A stretch of DNA of 30,403 nt from a virus. The stretch spans positions 1 to 30,403 of the IMG/VR virus record IMGVR_UViG_3300017782_000120. The stretch is one strand, 5' to 3'. A program made the position numbers and the translations under genes. The notes beneath the pieces were generated by a model that did no database searches, was not told the DNA's origin, and saw only the letters and a program-made list of their open reading frames with translations. Below are positions 1 through 19,084 of this stretch, in pieces (within the stretch, counting starts at the first letter, position 1; every line of letters starts with the position of its first letter).

Positions 1-123
1 AAACAACAAGTTAAGTTATACAAAATAAAGGGAAATCCTAACAACCCAAGAATTATAAAAAATGATAAGTTTAAGAAGTTAGTTAAGTCTATTAAAGAGT
101 TCCCAGAAATGTTAGAAAAAAGA
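1..123. repeat. Terminal direct repeat, left copy
   Basis: These 123 bases are identical to 30281-30403. The repeat falls inside the open frame of the ParB-like gene and restores its missing start, so the simplest reading is a circular map of 30,280 bp whose ends overlap by an assembly k-mer. A true short terminal redundancy cannot be excluded from sequence alone. Confidence 0.97.
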
Positions 124-591
124 CCTATTATAGTAGATGAAGAAATGATGGTTTTAGGTGGTAATATGAGATTAAAAGCAAGTAAAGATGCTGGTCTTAA
201 TGAAGTGTGGATAGATATAGCTAAAGGATGGACAAAAGAACAGAAAGATGAATTTGTTGTAAAAGACAATGTTAACTTTGGAGAATGGGAATGGGATATG
301 TTGGCAAACGAATGGGATAGCGTAGAGCTTGCAGATTGGGGATTAGATGTTTGGCAAAACGAGAATGATATTGAAACGAGTGATGAATTTAGTTTACCTG
401 ATGGAGACAAAAACAACATAGAACAAATAACTTACACTTTAAGTAGTGAACAATGTAATATAATAAAAGAAGCAATACAGGATATAAAAAAAACTGAAGA
501 ATATAAGTACGTAGAAACTTATGGAAATGAAAACAGCAATGGAAATGCTTTATATTTATTAATAAGTGAATGGAAAAAAACAAACAATTAA
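1..591 (+). CDS. ParB/Spo0J-like N-terminal domain protein (5' end across the join)
   Basis: Base 1 is codon 2 of this gene; the ATG is at 30278 on the other side of the circular join, giving 197 aa. The first 110 residues look like a ParB-type nuclease/CTPase fold: an N-terminal NPNNPRIIKNDKF segment, then PIIVDEEMMVLGGNMRLKA, which corresponds to the GxxR region of ParB box II with the usual H/ER replaced by NMR. It is followed by the FGEWEWDMLANEWD and WGLDVW segments common in phage ParB-like proteins that sit beside DNA methylases. The C-terminal 70 residues are acidic and unassigned. It overlaps the next gene by 22 bp and heads the putative DNA-modification module. A role in site recognition or nicking is inference; no partner ParA is present, so plasmid-type partitioning is unlikely. 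Confidence 0.8.
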   Translation, partial: KQQVKLYKIKGNPNNPRIIKNDKFKKLVKSIKEFPEMLEKRPIIVDEEMMVLGGNMRLKASKDAGLNEVWIDIAKGWTKEQKDEFVVKDNVNFGEWEWDMLANEWDSVELADWGLDVWQNENDIETSDEFSLPDGDKNNIEQITYTLSSEQCNIIKEAIQDIKKTEEYKYVETYGNENSNGNALYLLISEWKKTNN

Positions 592-1268
592 AAGAAATAA
601 AAGTAAAGATTATAGACAGTAAAACTGCAAAAAGATATACTGTAGAAAATCATTATATGAAAACTTTTCCAATAGCTAAAGTCTGTTTTGGAGTTTTTTA
701 TAATAAGCTATTAAGAGGGGTTGTTACATTTGGTCTTAGTCCAAGTACAGAACAAAAAGTAAAAAAAATAGTTCCTAAAATAAATGATAATGAATTTATA
801 GAAATGCAAAGAATGAACTTGTCTGATGTTTTAGGACATAATGCAGAAAGTTATGTGCTGGGAAAAATATATAAATTATTTAAAGACAATACTAAAGTTA
901 AAATTCTTTTGACACACGCAGGAGGATGCAAAAATGATTGTGGTATTGTTTATCAGGCTAGTAGTTGGCTGTATTTTGGTAAAGAAGTTTGCAATGACTT
1001 TTACCATACTGTAAATGGGGAATATAAAAACATAATATCACCGATGCGTTTTGGTAGAGTGCCAAGAGAAATAGTAAAACAAGGAAGTCAAAAAGTTGGA
1101 GAATATTTATTTGGTGAGGGTAAAATAATAAATTCATTTAGATATTTGTATATTTATCCACTTAACAAAGGAATTAGAAGTTATTTAGAAAAAAAATGCA
1201 AAGATTATCCTAAAGATAGTCAGGTTTTTAGAAAAAATCAAGAATGGATAACAGGGGGTGACCAATAG
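570..1268 (+). CDS. Mom-like DNA-modification protein 1 (GNAT-type fold)
   Basis: This 232-aa protein resembles the phage Mu Mom family, GNAT-fold enzymes that modify adenine N6 in phage DNA against restriction. Landmarks: ENHYMK (residues 26-31), FGVF (40-43), GVVTFG (50-55), EMQRM (78-82), NAES (91-94), and a core with THAGGCKNDCGIVYQAS at 115-131, then WLYFGK. The pattern HY, FG, RM, ES and G-Y-Q/R-AS is shared with the second Mom-like gene at 1310. The last 80 residues are basic and aromatic, possibly DNA-binding. The ATG overlaps the ParB-like gene by 22 bp, so the two are probably co-translated. The 3' end (GGG GGT GAC CAA TAG) supplies the 5' acceptor strand of the tRNA-like element at 1254-1301. 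Family assignment is from recall of sequence patterns; the donor and product are unknown. Confidence 0.75.
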   Translation: MEKNKQLKEIKVKIIDSKTAKRYTVENHYMKTFPIAKVCFGVFYNKLLRGVVTFGLSPSTEQKVKKIVPKINDNEFIEMQRMNLSDVLGHNAESYVLGKIYKLFKDNTKVKILLTHAGGCKNDCGIVYQASSWLYFGKEVCNDFYHTVNGEYKNIISPMRFGRVPREIVKQGSQKVGEYLFGEGKIINSFRYLYIYPLNKGIRSYLEKKCKDYPKDSQVFRKNQEWITGGDQ

Positions 1269-1301
1269 GGGTTTTATGCAGTTCGAACCTGCACACCTCC
1301 A
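1254..1301 (+). ncRNA. tRNA-like minihelix, alanine-type acceptor, no anticodon arm
   Basis: A 48-nt element folds as acceptor stem GGGGGTG (1254-1260) with CACCTCC (1294-1300), 7 bp with G3:U70; a small D-like arm ACC (1261-1263) with GGT (1270-1272) around loop AATAGG; and a perfect T arm TGCAG (1277-1281), loop TTCGAAC, CTGCA (1289-1293). Base 73 is A and the next bases are CTA, so CCA would have to be added. There is no anticodon arm, as in the tRNA-like domain of tmRNA, whose acceptor stem is very similar. G3:U70 with A73 is the established identity set for alanyl-tRNA synthetase, which charges minihelices without an anticodon. It overlaps the end of the Mom-like gene 1 and lies 8 nt before the ATG of Mom-like gene 2. 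An attP-type remnant of tRNA-Ala is the main alternative, but it would not explain the matching 5' acceptor strand. Confidence 0.7.
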
Positions 1302-1309
1302 CTATAAAA

Positions 1310-2011
1310 ATGGGTAGAGCAAAAGAAATATTAGTTAAGGTTATAAAAAGCAAGGTAGCTAATGCCTTTATAAAGAAACAACACTATTCAGGCAAAGTTG
1401 TTCCTAACAGCACGTTACATTTTGGTTGCTTTTTAGATAATCGTTTACACGGGGTAATGAGTTACGGCAGTCCGTTTGTAAAAAAAAATGTAATTAATTT
1501 AGTTGAAGGAACAGGATGGAATGAGATGATAGAATTAAATAGAATGGCTTTTGATGAGTTTTTGCCTAAGTATAGTGAAAGTAGGTGTATCGCTATAAGC
1601 ATAAGATTAATAAAAAAAAATGCCCCACAAATCAAATGGATATTAAGTTTTAGTGATGGCTGTAGCTGTGGAGATGGAACAATATACAGGGCTAGTGGGT
1701 TTAAATTAATAGGAATAAAAGATAATAATGGTTTGTTCAATTATAATGGTGAAAATATACACGGAAAAGTCTTATGGGATAGAGGTATAAGCAAAAGTTG
1801 GTGTATTCAGGACAAAGAACTCGCAGAAATTAATTCTAGAAAAAATACATCAATAAAAAGAATAAAAGGTAAACAATTAAAGTATTTATATTTAATTGAT
1901 AAAAGTTGTAAAATAACTGTTCCAATATTGCCTTTTAGTGAAATAGATAAACAAGGGGCAGGAATGTATAAAGGTGAAAAGATAACATTAAAAGAAAGAC
2001 AAAATGCGTGA
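1310..2011 (+). CDS. Mom-like DNA-modification protein 2 (GNAT-type fold)
   Basis: This 233-aa paralogue of the gene at 570 has diverged strongly but keeps the same landmarks in order: KQHY (23-26), HFGCF (37-41), HGVMSYG (47-53), ELNRM (75-79), SES (89-91), and SFSDGCSCGDGTIYRAS (113-129). The ISKSW segment near 165 and the basic C-terminal third have no obvious counterpart of equal length in paralogue 1. The start ATG follows the minihelix element by 8 nt. Its final codon GCG and stop TGA (2006-2011) are the first bases of the tRNA-Gly-like element, repeating the gene-then-RNA arrangement of paralogue 1. Likely role: adenine modification of phage DNA, with a different donor or target from paralogue 1 (inference). 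Confidence 0.72.
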   Translation: MGRAKEILVKVIKSKVANAFIKKQHYSGKVVPNSTLHFGCFLDNRLHGVMSYGSPFVKKNVINLVEGTGWNEMIELNRMAFDEFLPKYSESRCIAISIRLIKKNAPQIKWILSFSDGCSCGDGTIYRASGFKLIGIKDNNGLFNYNGENIHGKVLWDRGISKSWCIQDKELAEINSRKNTSIKRIKGKQLKYLYLIDKSCKITVPILPFSEIDKQGAGMYKGEKITLKERQNA

Positions 2012-2077
2012 TTAGCATATACAGTAATGCGTTGGCTATTCCAAGTCAAAAAAGGGGTGCAATTCCACCATCACGCT
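2006..2077 (+). tRNA. tRNA-Gly(UCC)-like RNA with aberrant T and D loops
   Basis: Acceptor GCGTGAT (2006-2012) pairs perfectly with ATCACGC (2070-2076); base 73 is T; CCA is not encoded (CTA follows). D arm: GCAT/ATGC (2015-2018, 2027-2030) around ATACAGTA, with no GG pair. Anticodon stem TTGGC (2032-2036) with GTCAA (2045-2049) encloses the 8-nt loop TATTCCAA, giving U33, anticodon UCC and A37. The T region AGGGG-TGCAATT-CCACC carries G-U-G-C-A where T-psi-C is normal, and its stem has two mismatches; a 4-bp GGTG/CACC stem is an alternative. G1-C72, C2-G71, G3-C70, U73, C35 and C36 are the known bacterial glycine identity bases. Loss of D-loop GG and T-psi-C recalls the staphylococcal cell-wall glycyl-tRNAs, which avoid translation. 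It overlaps the end of Mom-like gene 2 by 6 bases. Confidence 0.72.
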
Positions 2078-2095
2078 CTAATACAACATAGTAAA

Positions 2096-2452
2096 ATGGA
2101 ACAAAATAGAACAAAAATAGCAAAGGAACAAATGTTAAAAGCACTAGAAGGAAGTCTAGGGATAGTTACAACAGCTTTAAAGTCTTGCAATCTATCAAGA
2201 ACTAATTTTTATAAATGGTTAAAAGAAGATGAAGAATTTGCTAAAAAAGTTAAAGATGTAGAATTAATAGCAAAAGATTTTGTAATGTCTAAATTTTATG
2301 AATGTATAAAAGACAAAGTACCTTCTGTTGTAATACACGGAACAAAGAATATTTGTGGTATGAACGAAACTAATAAAATAGATGTAACTTCAGGCAATGA
2401 ACCAATACATACACCACTTATAACATTTTATAAAACTGAGACTGAATCATAA
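2096..2452 (+). CDS. terS: Terminase small subunit
   Basis: This protein (118 aa) binds phage DNA and hands it to the large subunit for packaging. An N-terminal helix-turn-helix is visible in the first 60 residues (ALEGSLGIVTTALKSC, then LSRTNFYKWLKEDEEFA), the pattern of homeodomain-like small terminases, followed by a helical middle and a short tail. I start at the ATG at 2096 rather than at the in-frame ATG at 2027, because the latter would translate through the tRNA-like element ending at 2077, and the 2096 start has an A-rich leader. The large subunit follows directly and overlaps the end of this gene in another frame. Confidence 0.8.
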   Translation: MEQNRTKIAKEQMLKALEGSLGIVTTALKSCNLSRTNFYKWLKEDEEFAKKVKDVELIAKDFVMSKFYECIKDKVPSVVIHGTKNICGMNETNKIDVTSGNEPIHTPLITFYKTETES

Positions 2453-3641
2453 ATACAATCCATTATTTGAATCTGACTGTCGTTATTTTATTATAACAGG
2501 TGGTCGTGGTTCTGGTAAGTCTTTTGCTGTTACTGTATTTTTAACATTGCTTACTATGGTACAAGGTATAAGAGTATTGTTTACAAGATTTACAATGGTA
2601 TCAGCACACTTATCTATAATACCTGAATTTTTACAGAAGATAGGATTACTTGGATATAAAGATGATGTATTTTATGTAAATAAAGCGGAGGTTATAAATA
2701 CTAAAAGCAAAAGTGATATTTTATTTAGAGGGATTAAGACTTCAGCAGGAAATCAAACAGCCAGTCTAAAATCATTACAAGGTATTAGTTGCTGGGTATT
2801 AGATGAAGCAGAAGAGCTTATAGATGAAAATACTTTTGACACAATAGACCTTAGTATTAGAGAGAAAGATATTCAAAACAGAGTTATATTAATACTCAAC
2901 CCCGTAACTAAAGAACATTGGATATATAATAGGTTTTTTGAAAGCAAAGGTGTAGAAGGCGGTTTTAATGGTGTTAAGGACAATGTATGCTATATTCATA
3001 GTACATACTTAGATAATGTAGAAAACCTCTCAGAGAGCTTCCTAGAGCGTATTAAGAGCATAAAACATACTAACTTTAAAAAGTACACTCATAAAATACT
3101 TGGGGGTTGGCTAGACAAAGCTGAAGGTGTAGTATTTGAAAACTGGACTTTTGGTGAGTTTAATCCTGATAACTTACAAACTTCTTGTGGTATGGACTTT
3201 GGATTTTCTGTTGATCCTGATTCACTTACAGAAGTAGCTATTGATAAGAAGCATAAAAAGATCTATGTAAAAGAGCATATATACAGGAATGGATTAAAGA
3301 GTCAAGAACTAGCAAAGATTATATTAGACAAAGTAGATGACAAATTAATCATAGCAGACTCAGCAGAACCAAGATTGATTGCCGATCTTAGACATTTAGG
3401 TGTAAATATTAAACCAGTAAAAAAAGGAACTATTGAAAGTGGCATTACTAGAATGCAAGACTATCAATTAATTGTAAGTCCTGAATCAACTAATATAGCT
3501 AAAGAGCTAAATAATTATGTTTATGCTGATAAAGGATCTAAATTATATGTAGATAACTATAATCACGCAATAGATGGAATACGTTACAATATTATATATC
3601 ATTTAGACAATCCAAATGCAGGAAAATATTATGTGCAATAA
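2430..3641 (+). CDS. terL: Terminase large subunit (start uncertain)
   Basis: This is the ATPase and nuclease motor that packages DNA. Walker A GGRGSGKS lies at 2499-2522, Walker B is CWVLDEAEEL, the coupling region is ILNPV, and the C-terminal RNase-H-like nuclease has CGMDFGFSVDPDS, IADSAEPR and HAIDGIRYN. Length is about 400 aa, normal for the family. The frame is open from 2424, but there is no ATG or GTG before Walker A. The first TTG (2547) lies after Walker A, so it cannot be the true start. An ATA at 2430 (IKLRLNHKYNPLFESD) gives the expected N-terminus; CTG at 2436 or 2442, or a +1 shift from the overlapping small-subunit gene, are other options. Identity as terL is firm; only the start is open. 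Confidence 0.9.
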   Translation: MKLRLNHKYNPLFESDCRYFIITGGRGSGKSFAVTVFLTLLTMVQGIRVLFTRFTMVSAHLSIIPEFLQKIGLLGYKDDVFYVNKAEVINTKSKSDILFRGIKTSAGNQTASLKSLQGISCWVLDEAEELIDENTFDTIDLSIREKDIQNRVILILNPVTKEHWIYNRFFESKGVEGGFNGVKDNVCYIHSTYLDNVENLSESFLERIKSIKHTNFKKYTHKILGGWLDKAEGVVFENWTFGEFNPDNLQTSCGMDFGFSVDPDSLTEVAIDKKHKKIYVKEHIYRNGLKSQELAKIILDKVDDKLIIADSAEPRLIADLRHLGVNIKPVKKGTIESGITRMQDYQLIVSPESTNIAKELNNYVYADKGSKLYVDNYNHAIDGIRYNIIYHLDNPNAGKYYVQ

Positions 3642-3746: not shown

Positions 3747-4388
3747 ATGAAGGTCAAGATTAAGAAGGATGACAAGATTAAAAATTTTAAGCTAATAAGT
3801 AAATGGTCAGATGTCACGTTAGAAAAGTGGCTAAAACTTGTAGGGCTTGAAAAAGGAAGTAAGACAAAAGAAGCAGAAGAAACAATAGCAGCTCTTTCAA
3901 ATATACCTAAGAAATTAATAAATGAGCTTAGTATAAAAGATGTAGGTGTTATAATGAGTAAAATGGCAGAGCTACAAAAGTTACAAGATAGTTCTTTAAA
4001 AAAGGTAATTAAAATTAATGATGTTGAATATGGTTTCCACCCGAACTTAGATGATATTACACTTGGAGAGTATGCAGATATTGAAACTTATATAAAAGAT
4101 GGAGTTGAAAAGAAACTACCAGAAATGATGGCAATTCTTTACAGACCGATAATTGAAAAGAAGAACGATTTATACACTATTGAAGCCTATGACGGCAATA
4201 TAAGAATGAGAGCAGAAGAAATGAAGAGTATGTCAGCAGAACAAGTGCAAAGTGCGCTGGTTTTTTTTTGGAGTTTCGCAGCAGTATTATTAGAGATTTT
4301 GCCATCATATTTGACTCAGACGCTGAAGGAAACGAAAGTGCAATCGCAACAGAATCCTTCGCAGACAGATGGGGATGGTTTGGGATAA
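3747..4388 (+). CDS. Tail assembly chaperone (gpG-like)
   Basis: This 213-aa protein probably escorts the tape measure during tail assembly, like lambda gpG. It has a helical N-terminal part (LKLVGLEKG, TIAALSNIPKKLINEL), a central FHPNLDDITLGEYADIE segment frequent in Bacteroidota phage tail chaperones, and a hydrophobic helix FFWSFAAVLLEILPSYL. It lies upstream of the tail genes and overlaps a second frame (4268-4534) in the -1 register after a run of nine T, as in gpG/gpGT pairs. The stop TAA shares a base with an ATG at 4388. A TCTATTA-type motif abuts its start. Confidence 0.62.
   Translation: MKVKIKKDDKIKNFKLISKWSDVTLEKWLKLVGLEKGSKTKEAEETIAALSNIPKKLINELSIKDVGVIMSKMAELQKLQDSSLKKVIKINDVEYGFHPNLDDITLGEYADIETYIKDGVEKKLPEMMAILYRPIIEKKNDLYTIEAYDGNIRMRAEEMKSMSAEQVQSALVFFWSFAAVLLEILPSYLTQTLKETKVQSQQNPSQTDGDGLG
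4260..4270 (+). promoter_or_regulatory. Probable -1 ribosomal frameshift site (T9 run)
   Basis: Codons GTT TTT TTT TGG in the gpG-like frame contain nine consecutive T (4261-4269). Slipping back one base gives TTT TTT TTG and enters the open frame that encodes the conserved-looking ADRWGWFGIMYRL extension. Location between overlapping tail-chaperone frames is the classic setting. A sequencing error in the homopolymer is the main competing explanation. Confidence 0.5.
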
Positions 4389-4534
4389 TGTATAGATTAA
4401 CAAATGGGGAAATAATAAATTTAGAAAGAATAACGAATCTTAGCCTGTTAGAATGTTTAACTTGGCTATGTTACGAAACAGACTTAAACTCACAAAATAA
4501 ATTACAAAATGGCAGTCAGGAACAAAACATATAA
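4268..4534 (+). CDS. Tail chaperone C-terminal extension (gpT-like, -1 frame)
   Basis: Read as the frame-shifted tail of the 3747 gene, this adds about 88 residues ending in ADRWGWFGIMYRLTNGEI, then LSLLECLTWLCYETD. The W-W-F/Y and ECLTWL pattern resembles the T part of gpGT proteins of other Bacteroidota phages. Within the first 35 residues the alternative frame also looks protein-like, so the exact shift point is not settled. Independent initiation at the ATG at 4388, which overlaps the stop of the upstream gene, would give only a 48-aa protein and would lose the WGWF segment. Confidence 0.55.
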   Translation: MEFRSSIIRDFAIIFDSDAEGNESAIATESFADRWGWFGIMYRLTNGEIINLERITNLSLLECLTWLCYETDLNSQNKLQNGSQEQNI

Positions 4535-17264: not shown

Positions 17265-18062
17265 ATGACTCAAAAACTTGGATTATCATTGAGCCTTCCT
17301 TCTATTAAAACAGGTGGTGCTAGTGCCTTTAAAAATTTATATTCTTTAAATTTTGATGGGGTTGATGATTATGTAGATTTTGGAGATGAAGATATATTCA
17401 CACCAAATTATTCGGGTGCTAACAGAGGAATGTCTTGGAGTTTTTGGCTTAAAGCGGCTGATATTACGCAGCAAAGATTACTAAATAAAAGTGGTCTCTT
17501 TTATAGTGGTAGCAGTAAATATGAATATTTGATAACAACTAATTTTGCTAATAAAGTAAAAATTAATATTTATGGTGGTGGTTCTGTTAGTATTGATATG
17601 AGGTTAATACTAAACACTATTTTAACTGATGATACTTGGTTTCATATAGCTTTTACTTGGAATTTAGGCTCTACTAATGCAGATTTAATAGGATATATAA
17701 ATGGAGTAAAACATAGTGTAGCAGATGGGAATGCAAGTTGGTCATTAGCTGGTACTTGGTCGCCTGTTCAAAATACACTTAATCCTTTGTATATGGGAAG
17801 AGATATAAGCAATTACGGAGAAGCTATTTTAGATGAAGTTGCTATATTTGATGATAATTTATCTACTGCTAAAGTACAATCTATTTACAATAGTGGTACA
17901 CCAACTGACTTATCTGGCGAACAATATTTGATAGGCTATTGGAGAAATGGAGATACAGCAGGAACATCTGTATTCCCTACTATTCAAGACTACTCATCAC
18001 AAAGTAACGATGGAACTATGACCAATATGACATCAGGAGATATAATAACAAATACACCATAA
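17265..18062 (+). CDS. LamG/concanavalin-like lectin domain protein A
   Basis: 265 aa. After a 30-residue N-terminus (KLGLSLSLPSIKTGG) comes one LamG-type jelly roll: LNFDGVDDYVDFG, SWSFWLKAA, WFHIAFTWN, IGYINGVKH, LDEVAIFDDNL, then YNSGTPTDLSGEQYLIGYW and GTMTNMTSGDI. Such domains bind glycans; on a virion they act in adsorption, for example as capsid or tail decoration. A close paralogue lies at 18290. No signal peptide. Confidence 0.72.
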   Translation: MTQKLGLSLSLPSIKTGGASAFKNLYSLNFDGVDDYVDFGDEDIFTPNYSGANRGMSWSFWLKAADITQQRLLNKSGLFYSGSSKYEYLITTNFANKVKINIYGGGSVSIDMRLILNTILTDDTWFHIAFTWNLGSTNADLIGYINGVKHSVADGNASWSLAGTWSPVQNTLNPLYMGRDISNYGEAILDEVAIFDDNLSTAKVQSIYNSGTPTDLSGEQYLIGYWRNGDTAGTSVFPTIQDYSSQSNDGTMTNMTSGDIITNTP

Positions 18063-18289: not shown

Positions 18290-19084
18290 ATGGCACAAAA
18301 ATTAGGATTAGCATTAAGTTTACCAACTATCAAAACAGCAGCAGGTTCAGCTTTTGAGAATCTATATTCTTTAGACTTTGATGGGGTGGATGACTATGTA
18401 GACTTTGGTAGTAGTGCTTCTTTTACACCAAATAGCTCAGGTGCAAATCGTGGTTTTTCTATCTCTTTATGGGTAAAAACTACTGCAAGTGGACCAACAA
18501 TTTGCAGTAAACTAAATATTGGTAATTTAGAATACTCTGTAAAAATTGGGGCTGGTGGAAATATTGATGTTATATTTTATGGCAATAACAGTGGTGTAAT
18601 ATTTCAAAGATTAATCTGCGACACAAGCTATGGCGGTTTTATTGCTATTAATGATGGTAATTGGCATCATCTTGCAGTTACCTTTAATTTAGGAAGCACT
18701 GCAAGTTCAATTATAATTTACATAGATGGTGTGGAGTTTTCAGATAGTAATGGTGGTGCTAATTATGCTAGTACAGGAACGTGGTCGCCTGTTATAAATA
18801 CATCTGCTTATTTTGCACTTAACACTCCTAGTAGAGGTTTTAGTGGAAATATAGATGAATTGTCTATTTGGGATGGTTCTCTTAACCAAAGCGGAATTAA
18901 TGAAATATACAATAGTGGAACACCTACTGATTTGTCAGGAGGACAGTATTTAATAGGCTGGTGGAGAAACGGAGACCCAACAGGAACAGGTGCATTTCCA
19001 ACAATAGTAAATCAAGAAGGGGCGGTTTTAGATGGAACAATGACTAATATGACTTCTGGCGATATAGTAACAGACGTACCTTAA
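18290..19084 (+). CDS. LamG/concanavalin-like lectin domain protein B
   Basis: 264 aa, paralogue of the protein at 17265. Both ends match closely (KLGLALSLPTIKT; LDFDGVDDYVDFG; NSGTPTDLSGGQYLIGWW; GTMTNMTSGDI), while the middle, which would form the jelly-roll loops and sugar site (about residues 65-170), is divergent. That is the pattern of a duplicated receptor-binding domain under diversifying selection. It lies 10 bp before the portal gene. Confidence 0.72.
   Translation: MAQKLGLALSLPTIKTAAGSAFENLYSLDFDGVDDYVDFGSSASFTPNSSGANRGFSISLWVKTTASGPTICSKLNIGNLEYSVKIGAGGNIDVIFYGNNSGVIFQRLICDTSYGGFIAINDGNWHHLAVTFNLGSTASSIIIYIDGVEFSDSNGGANYASTGTWSPVINTSAYFALNTPSRGFSGNIDELSIWDGSLNQSGINEIYNSGTPTDLSGGQYLIGWWRNGDPTGTGAFPTIVNQEGAVLDGTMTNMTSGDIVTDVP

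Follow-up and report, generated by a model that had tools for sequence, protein, structure and literature searches.

Dedicated non-translational tRNAs are a known kind of RNA, and the staphylococcal tRNA-Gly among them carries GUGC in its T loop. Some viruses have tRNA-like structures that can be aminoacylated, the tymovirus element (RF00233) being one example. Alanine minihelices are reportedly substrates of AlaRS, a result attributed to Francklyn and Schimmel. The Mom protein of phage Mu makes N6-carbamoylmethyl-adenine, that is, it places a glycinamide on adenine. Acetyl-CoA is said to have been put forward as its donor in earlier work; to our knowledge, the donor of this glycinamide-like modification is unsettled. 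We are aware of no case in which an aminoacyl-tRNA serves as the donor for a DNA base, nor of a natural alanine RNA without an anticodon arm. Our literature search covered titles and the starts of abstracts, with preprints and most subscription journals outside its scope; among the matches listed, none linked Mom to tRNA (a published link may exist), and none described such a donor or such an alanine RNA. Methylcarbamoyl transfer is counted among GNAT reactions in a section of a 2021 paper (PMC8072286). Parts of two further papers describe a non-proteinogenic tRNA-Gly of Staphylococcus aureus with an altered D-loop GG and altered T-stem pairs 49-65 and 51-63, read there as escape from EF-Tu (PMC4052509, PMC9976931). 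The relevant part of the second gives the bacterial GlyRS identity set as U73, G1-C72, C2-G71, G3-C70, C35 and C36, and the AlaRS set as A73, G2-C71, G3.U70, G4-C69 and G20 (PMC9976931).

Here, we describe two tRNA-like RNAs that adjoin Mom-family genes in a virus record of 30,403 bases, which as a whole is the window of our analysis. The features at its left end are as follows (R1 and R2 are covariance models of the Gly-type and the Ala-type RNA).

1..591, plus strand: gene for a ParB-like protein that heads the cassette, its 5' end cut by the window edge
570..1268, plus strand: mom1, a Mom-family DNA modification gene (PF25680, E 2.4e-39; phrog_1384, E 5.4e-36)
1254..1302, plus strand: Ala-type RNA of 49 nt without an anticodon arm (R2, 77.3 bits)
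1310..2011, plus strand: mom2, a Mom-family DNA modification gene with a GNAT fold (PF25680, E 3.2e-47)
2006..2077, plus strand: Gly-type tRNA-like RNA (RF00005, 34.8 bits; R1, 79.2 bits; covariation)
2067..2067, plus strand: A bulging from the 3' strand of the T stem, at about position 63, a family signature that is invariant in alignment A4
2096..2452, plus strand: small terminase, next in order downstream of the Gly-type element (PHROGs terminase small subunit, E 2.7e-5)

The gene order is thus ParB-like gene, mom1 (570-1268), mom2 (1310-2011), small terminase (terS) and large terminase. The Ala-type RNA overlaps the final codons of mom1, and the Gly-type RNA starts inside the mom2 stop codon and lies between mom2 and terS. 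The ParB-like gene has a weak Pfam ParB_N match below the cut-off and matches to PHROGs nuclease and ParB-like families (best E values 4.8e-24 and 1.1e-19). ParB-like genes also lie upstream of mom in Psychrobacter phage Y8A and Microbacterium phage Appa. Elsewhere in the window, 17265-18062 and 18290-19084 encode near-equal proteins (265 and 264 aa) with one small ORF between them, duplicates as judged by eye.

Both Mom proteins resemble phage Mu Mom in family, fold and an aligned serine. They score 135.5 bits (mom1) and 161.2 bits (mom2) against a PF25680 cut-off of 27.1. The AlphaFold model of Mom2 (mean pLDDT 90) has a GNAT fold, and its best PDB match is 8bv8, phage Mu Mom (Z 21.7). Mom2 S91 aligns with Mu S124, and Mom1 also has a serine in the aligned column; Ser124 is the serine changed in the inactive mutant 8bv8, and it is kept in both proteins of the window. 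Among the structural matches listed for Mom2, the neighbours below Mu Mom were N-acyl- and N-acetyltransferases and none was an aminoacyl-tRNA transferase, a result that excludes nothing. Residues ~140-185 of Mom2 are hypervariable in sequence and length among close relatives, with the remainder well conserved; this stretch is perhaps the DNA-target region. Unlike Mu, where R1, R2 and R3 (a covariance model of D-armless Gly-type copies) found no tRNA-like RNA adjoining mom, the mom genes of the window have such RNAs beside them.

A preliminary description, made from the window alone, had read 2006-2077 as a tRNA-Gly(UCC) variant that is probably excluded from translation. The cloverleaf is real: it scores 34.8 bits with Rfam RF00005 against a gathering threshold of 29 (E 2.8e-5, 1.2 kb searched), and it is absent from the ARAGORN output and from a whole-window Rfam gathering scan with fast filters. 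It folds at -21 kcal/mol, compared with a shuffle mean of -13.6 (z -2.6; 5 of 200 shuffles equally good). R1, built from 27 sequences including the window's own, scores 79.2 bits here, and no other place in the window exceeds 14 bits. The acceptor stem is formed by 2006-2012 and 2070-2076 with U73 at 2077, the D stem by 2015-2018 and 2027-2030, and the anticodon stem by 2032-2036 and 2045-2049; the anticodon UCC is at 2040-2042, and the T stem pairs 2054-2057 with 2065-2066 and 2068-2069. The complete glycine identity set is present (G1-C72, C2-G71, G3-C70, U73, C35 at 2041 and C36 at 2042). As first described, GG is missing from the D loop AUACAGUA; the T loop reads UGCAAUU. The anticodon loop is 8 nt as originally read, and 6 nt if one extra pair forms. 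The T stem is indeed altered, but not by mismatches as had been proposed: in relatives, covariation on both sides supports a stem of 4 bp from which a single A (2067) bulges. Note that the window sequence folded by itself could alternatively pair GGUG with CACC in the T stem. The tymovirus model RF00233 overlaps weakly at 13.6 bits, far under its threshold of 40. Like the tymovirus element, the RNA mimics a tRNA; unlike it, the RNA is an internal element of a DNA phage and does not form the 3' genome end of a plant RNA virus.

A translational tRNA-Gly is expected to have a canonical T stem, a TTC T loop, a D-loop GG and a 7-nt anticodon loop, and 2006-2077 has none of these. The parallel with staphylococcal glycyl-tRNAs, drawn in the preliminary description, is sound for the D-loop GG and the T-stem pairs, as far as the relevant parts of the sources go (PMC9976931, PMC4052509). 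As in the S. aureus tRNA-Gly that serves FemX/A/B cell-wall bridges, the D-loop GG and the T stem are altered. Unlike that tRNA, the RNA here is phage-borne, adjoins mom, has a bulged T stem and sometimes lacks the D arm. The presumed acceptor also differs, being DNA, as does the presumed enzyme, a Mom-family GNAT.

Selection on the Gly-type RNA is evident across its relatives. In the R1 alignment, 99.4% of 538 cells are paired, compared with 35-56% for slid helices, and both partners vary in 14 of the 20 pairs. The only invariant pairs are the three acceptor identity pairs and one T-stem pair; the bulged A is invariant in alignment A4 (27 sequences). We then tallied 99 unique viral copies, excluding two truncated copies (L078, L281) and stray matches that are ordinary tRNAs or unassigned (L061:4152, L116:1206, L317:1334, L312:498, L177:3599 and L106:3991). 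U73 and C35C36 are each present in 99/99, and the three acceptor pairs are complete in 95, the other four bearing G3:U70. The T stem is bulged in 97/99; by inspection, the two copies with a plain T stem are those of Appa and of Arthrobacter phage Zartrosa. U33 is kept in just 60/99 and the anticodon loop is 8 nt in 59/99 (loop positions were set by an automatic best hairpin, which was mis-chosen in a few genome copies). A D-loop GG occurs in 58/98 and a TTC T loop in 65/99. A further class, of 66 nt, has no D arm at all; 97.2% of its 212 cells are paired, and all 12 D-armless copies encode a CCA end. Across relatives, then, the identity bases stay fixed, and change or loss affects U33, N34, the T loop, the D-loop GG and even the entire D arm.

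One pattern scanner missed the Gly-type RNA of the window, a second recovered few true elements because its anticodon pattern was too narrow, and a third, with fixed ends, matched in 65 of 93 loci, with a few wrong-strand or spurious matches and other elements missed by its pattern; covariance models superseded all three. An Rfam scan by E value called no tRNA at ten loci, those with the minis of the Psychrobacter phage among them.

Could the RNA be an ordinary, somewhat degenerate phage tRNA-Gly that serves translation? It does exceed the RF00005 gathering threshold, the Appa copy is annotated as tRNA-Gly(ccc), and a copy from Larkinella (L104) is detected by both ARAGORN and Rfam. The comparison with host genes makes this very unlikely. 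We picked 14 host genes among R1 matches that ARAGORN types as tRNA-Gly, and all 14 have U33, the GG and a 7-nt loop; 13 have a canonical T stem, and the remaining one (L338) was mis-cut by our script. The patchy U33, GG and 7-nt loop of the viral copies, their T-stem bulge and an entire class without a D arm are unlike this host set. Homologues with a TTC T loop or a D-loop GG, which would speak against a non-translational role, do exist in part, but even so the T-stem bulge is kept in 97 of the 99 copies, as is the association with Mom. The bulge sits where EF-Tu binds, and host tRNA-Gly has none; from this altered T-stem determinant, we infer that the Gly-type RNA would bind EF-Tu weakly. 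The earlier proposal of a non-translational glycine donor therefore gains strong support from the comparison, because the identity bases are frozen, the rest varies and the RNA is linked to Mom.

R1 matches at the mom 3' end in 80/80 close relatives of Mom2 (L001-L080), 26 of which supplied training rows; the element lies a median of 9 nt from the end of the Mom match (maximum 187), and the two strands are represented 40/40. In a second viral set without training rows, R1 matches in 57/57 loci, with strands at 28/29 and a median distance of 7 nt; this set comprises 57 of 80 listed loci after contigs already used were dropped, and at least one locus (L137) repeats the contig of another (L002). 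The RNA overlaps the end of the mom ORF in 53/80 and 49/57 loci. Among 39 Mom loci on bacterial genome contigs from several phyla, tallied by hand and with some loci sharing one genome, an element recognized by R1 or R3 lies within ~350 nt in 27 and at 0.8-1.3 kb in two more, and 10 have none. One of these ten (L116) has merely an ordinary tRNA-Gly ~1.2 kb upstream. R3 was trained on 13 rows taken from these loci and from Y8A, and the R3 search omitted one locus (L100) whose Mom and flanks are apparently the same as those of L099. A different mini element, with a T arm and a CACACCA end, follows mom at ~3220-3290 of a Tenericutes genome locus (L098).

We hand-picked 24 phage regions from 173, 253 and 172 records with a match, and an adjacent RNA was present in three: Y8A, with two elements in tandem, Zartrosa, and Appa, whose record already annotates the tRNA-Gly(ccc). 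The other 21, including Mu, Pseudomonas JD024, Listeria LP-124 and ICP1, have no adjacent RNA. Part of the Y8A paper reports zero tRNA genes, with tRNAscan-SE used (PMC10434257).

The neighbouring terminase served as a control. Among 80 large-terminase relatives (86-94% identity), R1 matches in 3 only; two of these have Mom alongside, and the contig of the third (L281) begins inside the element. Of the 77 terminase relatives without Mom in view, 76 lack the element, L281 being the exception, and 70 have sequence for 600 nt or more ahead of the terminase match, where the element would lie; it occurs in 0/70 of these. This also argues against a translational tRNA. At one locus of the terminase set (L296), a divergent Mom is matched but R1 finds nothing. 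For the converse test, an R3 search of 149 genomes yielded three places, every one adjoining Mom. Two are R3's own Bradyrhizobium training loci (L127, L129), and one is new (G076); there, the RNA begins on the final base of a divergent Mom gene, whose product shares 33% identity with the L127 protein over 111 residues. The 149 genomes hold four Mom genes, the fourth without an R3 match.

Position and orientation bear on two further explanations. tRNA 3' ends are common at phage attachment sites, and the RNA could be a tRNA fragment left by integration at a host tRNA gene. We give this next to no credence, as the structure is full length, covarying, distinct from host tRNA-Gly and placed between mom and terS, and no PF00589 integrase was found in this record, which is possibly a fragment. 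The RNA could also be a structured mRNA element that regulates mom and is merely tRNA-like, comparable to the Com-binding RNA of Mu mom. Its abutment on mom, and the frequent overlap with the mom ORF end, would suit such a role. It is nevertheless very improbable, since half of the copies are antisense to mom, and since regulation leaves the frozen synthetase identity bases, the NCC anticodon and the encoded CCA unexplained. At one locus (L038), a Gly-type and an Ala-type RNA are both antisense to mom, in tandem, and followed by a terminator-like hairpin; a sigma-70-like promoter was sought for this pair, and none matched.

The Ala-type RNA at 1254-1302 is a second, smaller element; neither it nor the overlap of the Gly-type RNA with a mom stop codon had been noted in the preliminary description. 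Its acceptor stem pairs 1254-1260 with 1294-1300, including G3:U70 (1256:1298), and A73 is at 1301. The T stem (1277-1281/1289-1293) closes the loop UUCGAAC, and a D-like hairpin is formed by 1261-1263/1270-1272. The RNA folds with z -2.0 relative to shuffles. It has no anticodon arm and hence no full cloverleaf; with G3:U70 and A73 both present, it may act as a tRNA-Ala acceptor without being classed as a tRNA-Ala. Like the AlaRS minihelix, it joins an acceptor stem bearing G3:U70 and A73 to a T arm. Unlike that laboratory construct, it is natural, conserved and equipped with a small extra hairpin.

Conservation of this RNA is also strong. G3:U70 is present in 19/19 distinct copies, A73 is invariant in alignment A10, and substitutions at the remaining acceptor and T-stem pairs are compensated, so that 99.6% of 226 cells are paired over the 19 copies. 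A small hairpin at the D-arm site appears in folds of the window and of four other copies (L038, L094, L125 and L130); the L112 copy folds otherwise on its own. Every match found with R2, whose 8 training rows include the window, sits in a locus with a mom1 gene. By our own count, R2 matches 26 of 27 distinct contigs that carry mom1 (at least 50% identity) and its 3' flank; eight of these matches are training rows and one is weak (L125, E 0.68), and the L130 copy was spotted by eye. In three loci (L038, L039, L090), the Ala-type RNA lies after mom2, by the Gly-type RNA, and not at mom1. Because the pair at L038 is antisense and in tandem with a terminator-like hairpin, the conservation of the RNA does not come from mom1 coding. 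R2 found only the known L112 place in the 14 genomes behind our loci, and it gave 0 matches in 295 genomes of the class of Larkinella, a set without a positive control and thus uninformative.

Phage tRNAs are established decoys against host defences. A charged RNA might thus serve another end, as a decoy against tRNA-cleaving defences or as a drain on synthetases, and lie near Mom as part of counter-defence; degenerate elbows would suit a decoy. We consider this unlikely, given that the link is to Mom itself, in several phyla and in both orientations, that the G3:U70 RNA is found only where mom1 is present, and that the Gly-type RNA is found next to Mom2 and, in a few cases (L294, Appa, Zartrosa), next to a more distant Mom.

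We propose instead that each Mom enzyme is paired with its own amino-acid-carrier RNA, so that dedicated, non-translational Gly- and Ala-RNAs feed Mom, and we put the probability of this reading at roughly 0.7. What we observe is that the RNAs exist and covary, that their identity bases are frozen, that they are linked to Mom, and that the Mom fold and serine are conserved. Transcription, charging by the host, EF-Tu escape, transfer to DNA and its chemistry are inferred. Host glycyl-tRNA synthetase would recognize the Gly-type RNA by its acceptor end, by U73 and by C35C36, and would charge it. The T-stem bulge, together with the loss of the elbow contacts and of U33, would hold the RNA off EF-Tu and the ribosome. 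Mom2 would then transfer the glycyl group onto adenines of phage DNA, and rearrangement onto the base would yield carbamoylmethyl-adenine, as for Mu. The glycinamide in the Mu product fits glycine as the transferred amino acid, and with Mom as the partner, the likely acceptor is DNA, not the cell wall. The Ala-type RNA appears to retain only the marks of alanyl-tRNA synthetase (G3:U70, A73 and the small D-like hairpin), and Mom1 might likewise add alanine from it, as suggested solely by the identity of the RNA. The pattern of trimming would fit the synthetases, with the Ala RNA dropping its anticodon arm and the Gly RNAs able to drop the D arm while keeping the anticodon.

The linkage and covariation data would also fit if the RNA were a guide or structural cofactor of Mom and not an amino-acid donor. 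This is quite unlikely, however, because selection has acted on the positions that synthetases read and, among the D-armless copies, on the CCA end, none of which a guide needs. Several points count against the carrier reading: G3:U70 in 4/99 Gly-type copies, the ordinary T stems of Appa and Zartrosa, the missing adjoining RNA at 21/24 phage regions and at 10/39 genome Mom loci, the absence of a promoter match for the antisense pair at L038, the deviating fold of the L112 copy, the Ala-type RNA placed behind mom2 in three contigs, and the proposal of acetyl-CoA as the donor for Mu Mom. Mom genes without an adjacent RNA would need to use a host tRNA or another donor. We lean, with somewhat less assurance, towards a broader proposal: that the Mom group uses an aminoacyl-tRNA donor, that lineages add different amino acids, and that they do so from private donor RNAs, some of them minimal (49-nt alanyl, 66-nt glycyl). 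If true, amino acids would be placed on DNA by a system that has non-translational tRNAs of its own, and aminoacyl-tRNA would gain a new kind of acceptor, DNA bases. Its RNAs would be natural minimal tRNAs that uncouple charging from translation, and a simple sequence rule would follow, in which the identity RNA beside mom predicts the amino acid placed on phage DNA.

Several further arrangements were observed among the loci. At L294, positions 3844-4494 encode a third, divergent Mom type (~26% identical to mom1) in the same slot before terS. The Gly-type RNA is present there too, with compensatory changes in its acceptor stem, which looks like a replacement of the enzyme that left the RNA in place. 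Tandem pairs of Gly-type mini RNAs lie behind a single mom gene at L132:1499-1642 and L215:3162-3302. In Methylophilales phage Melnitz, a tRNA-like match of 25 bits (L312:498-566), with TTCC in the anticodon region, lies ~0.9 kb upstream of Mom.
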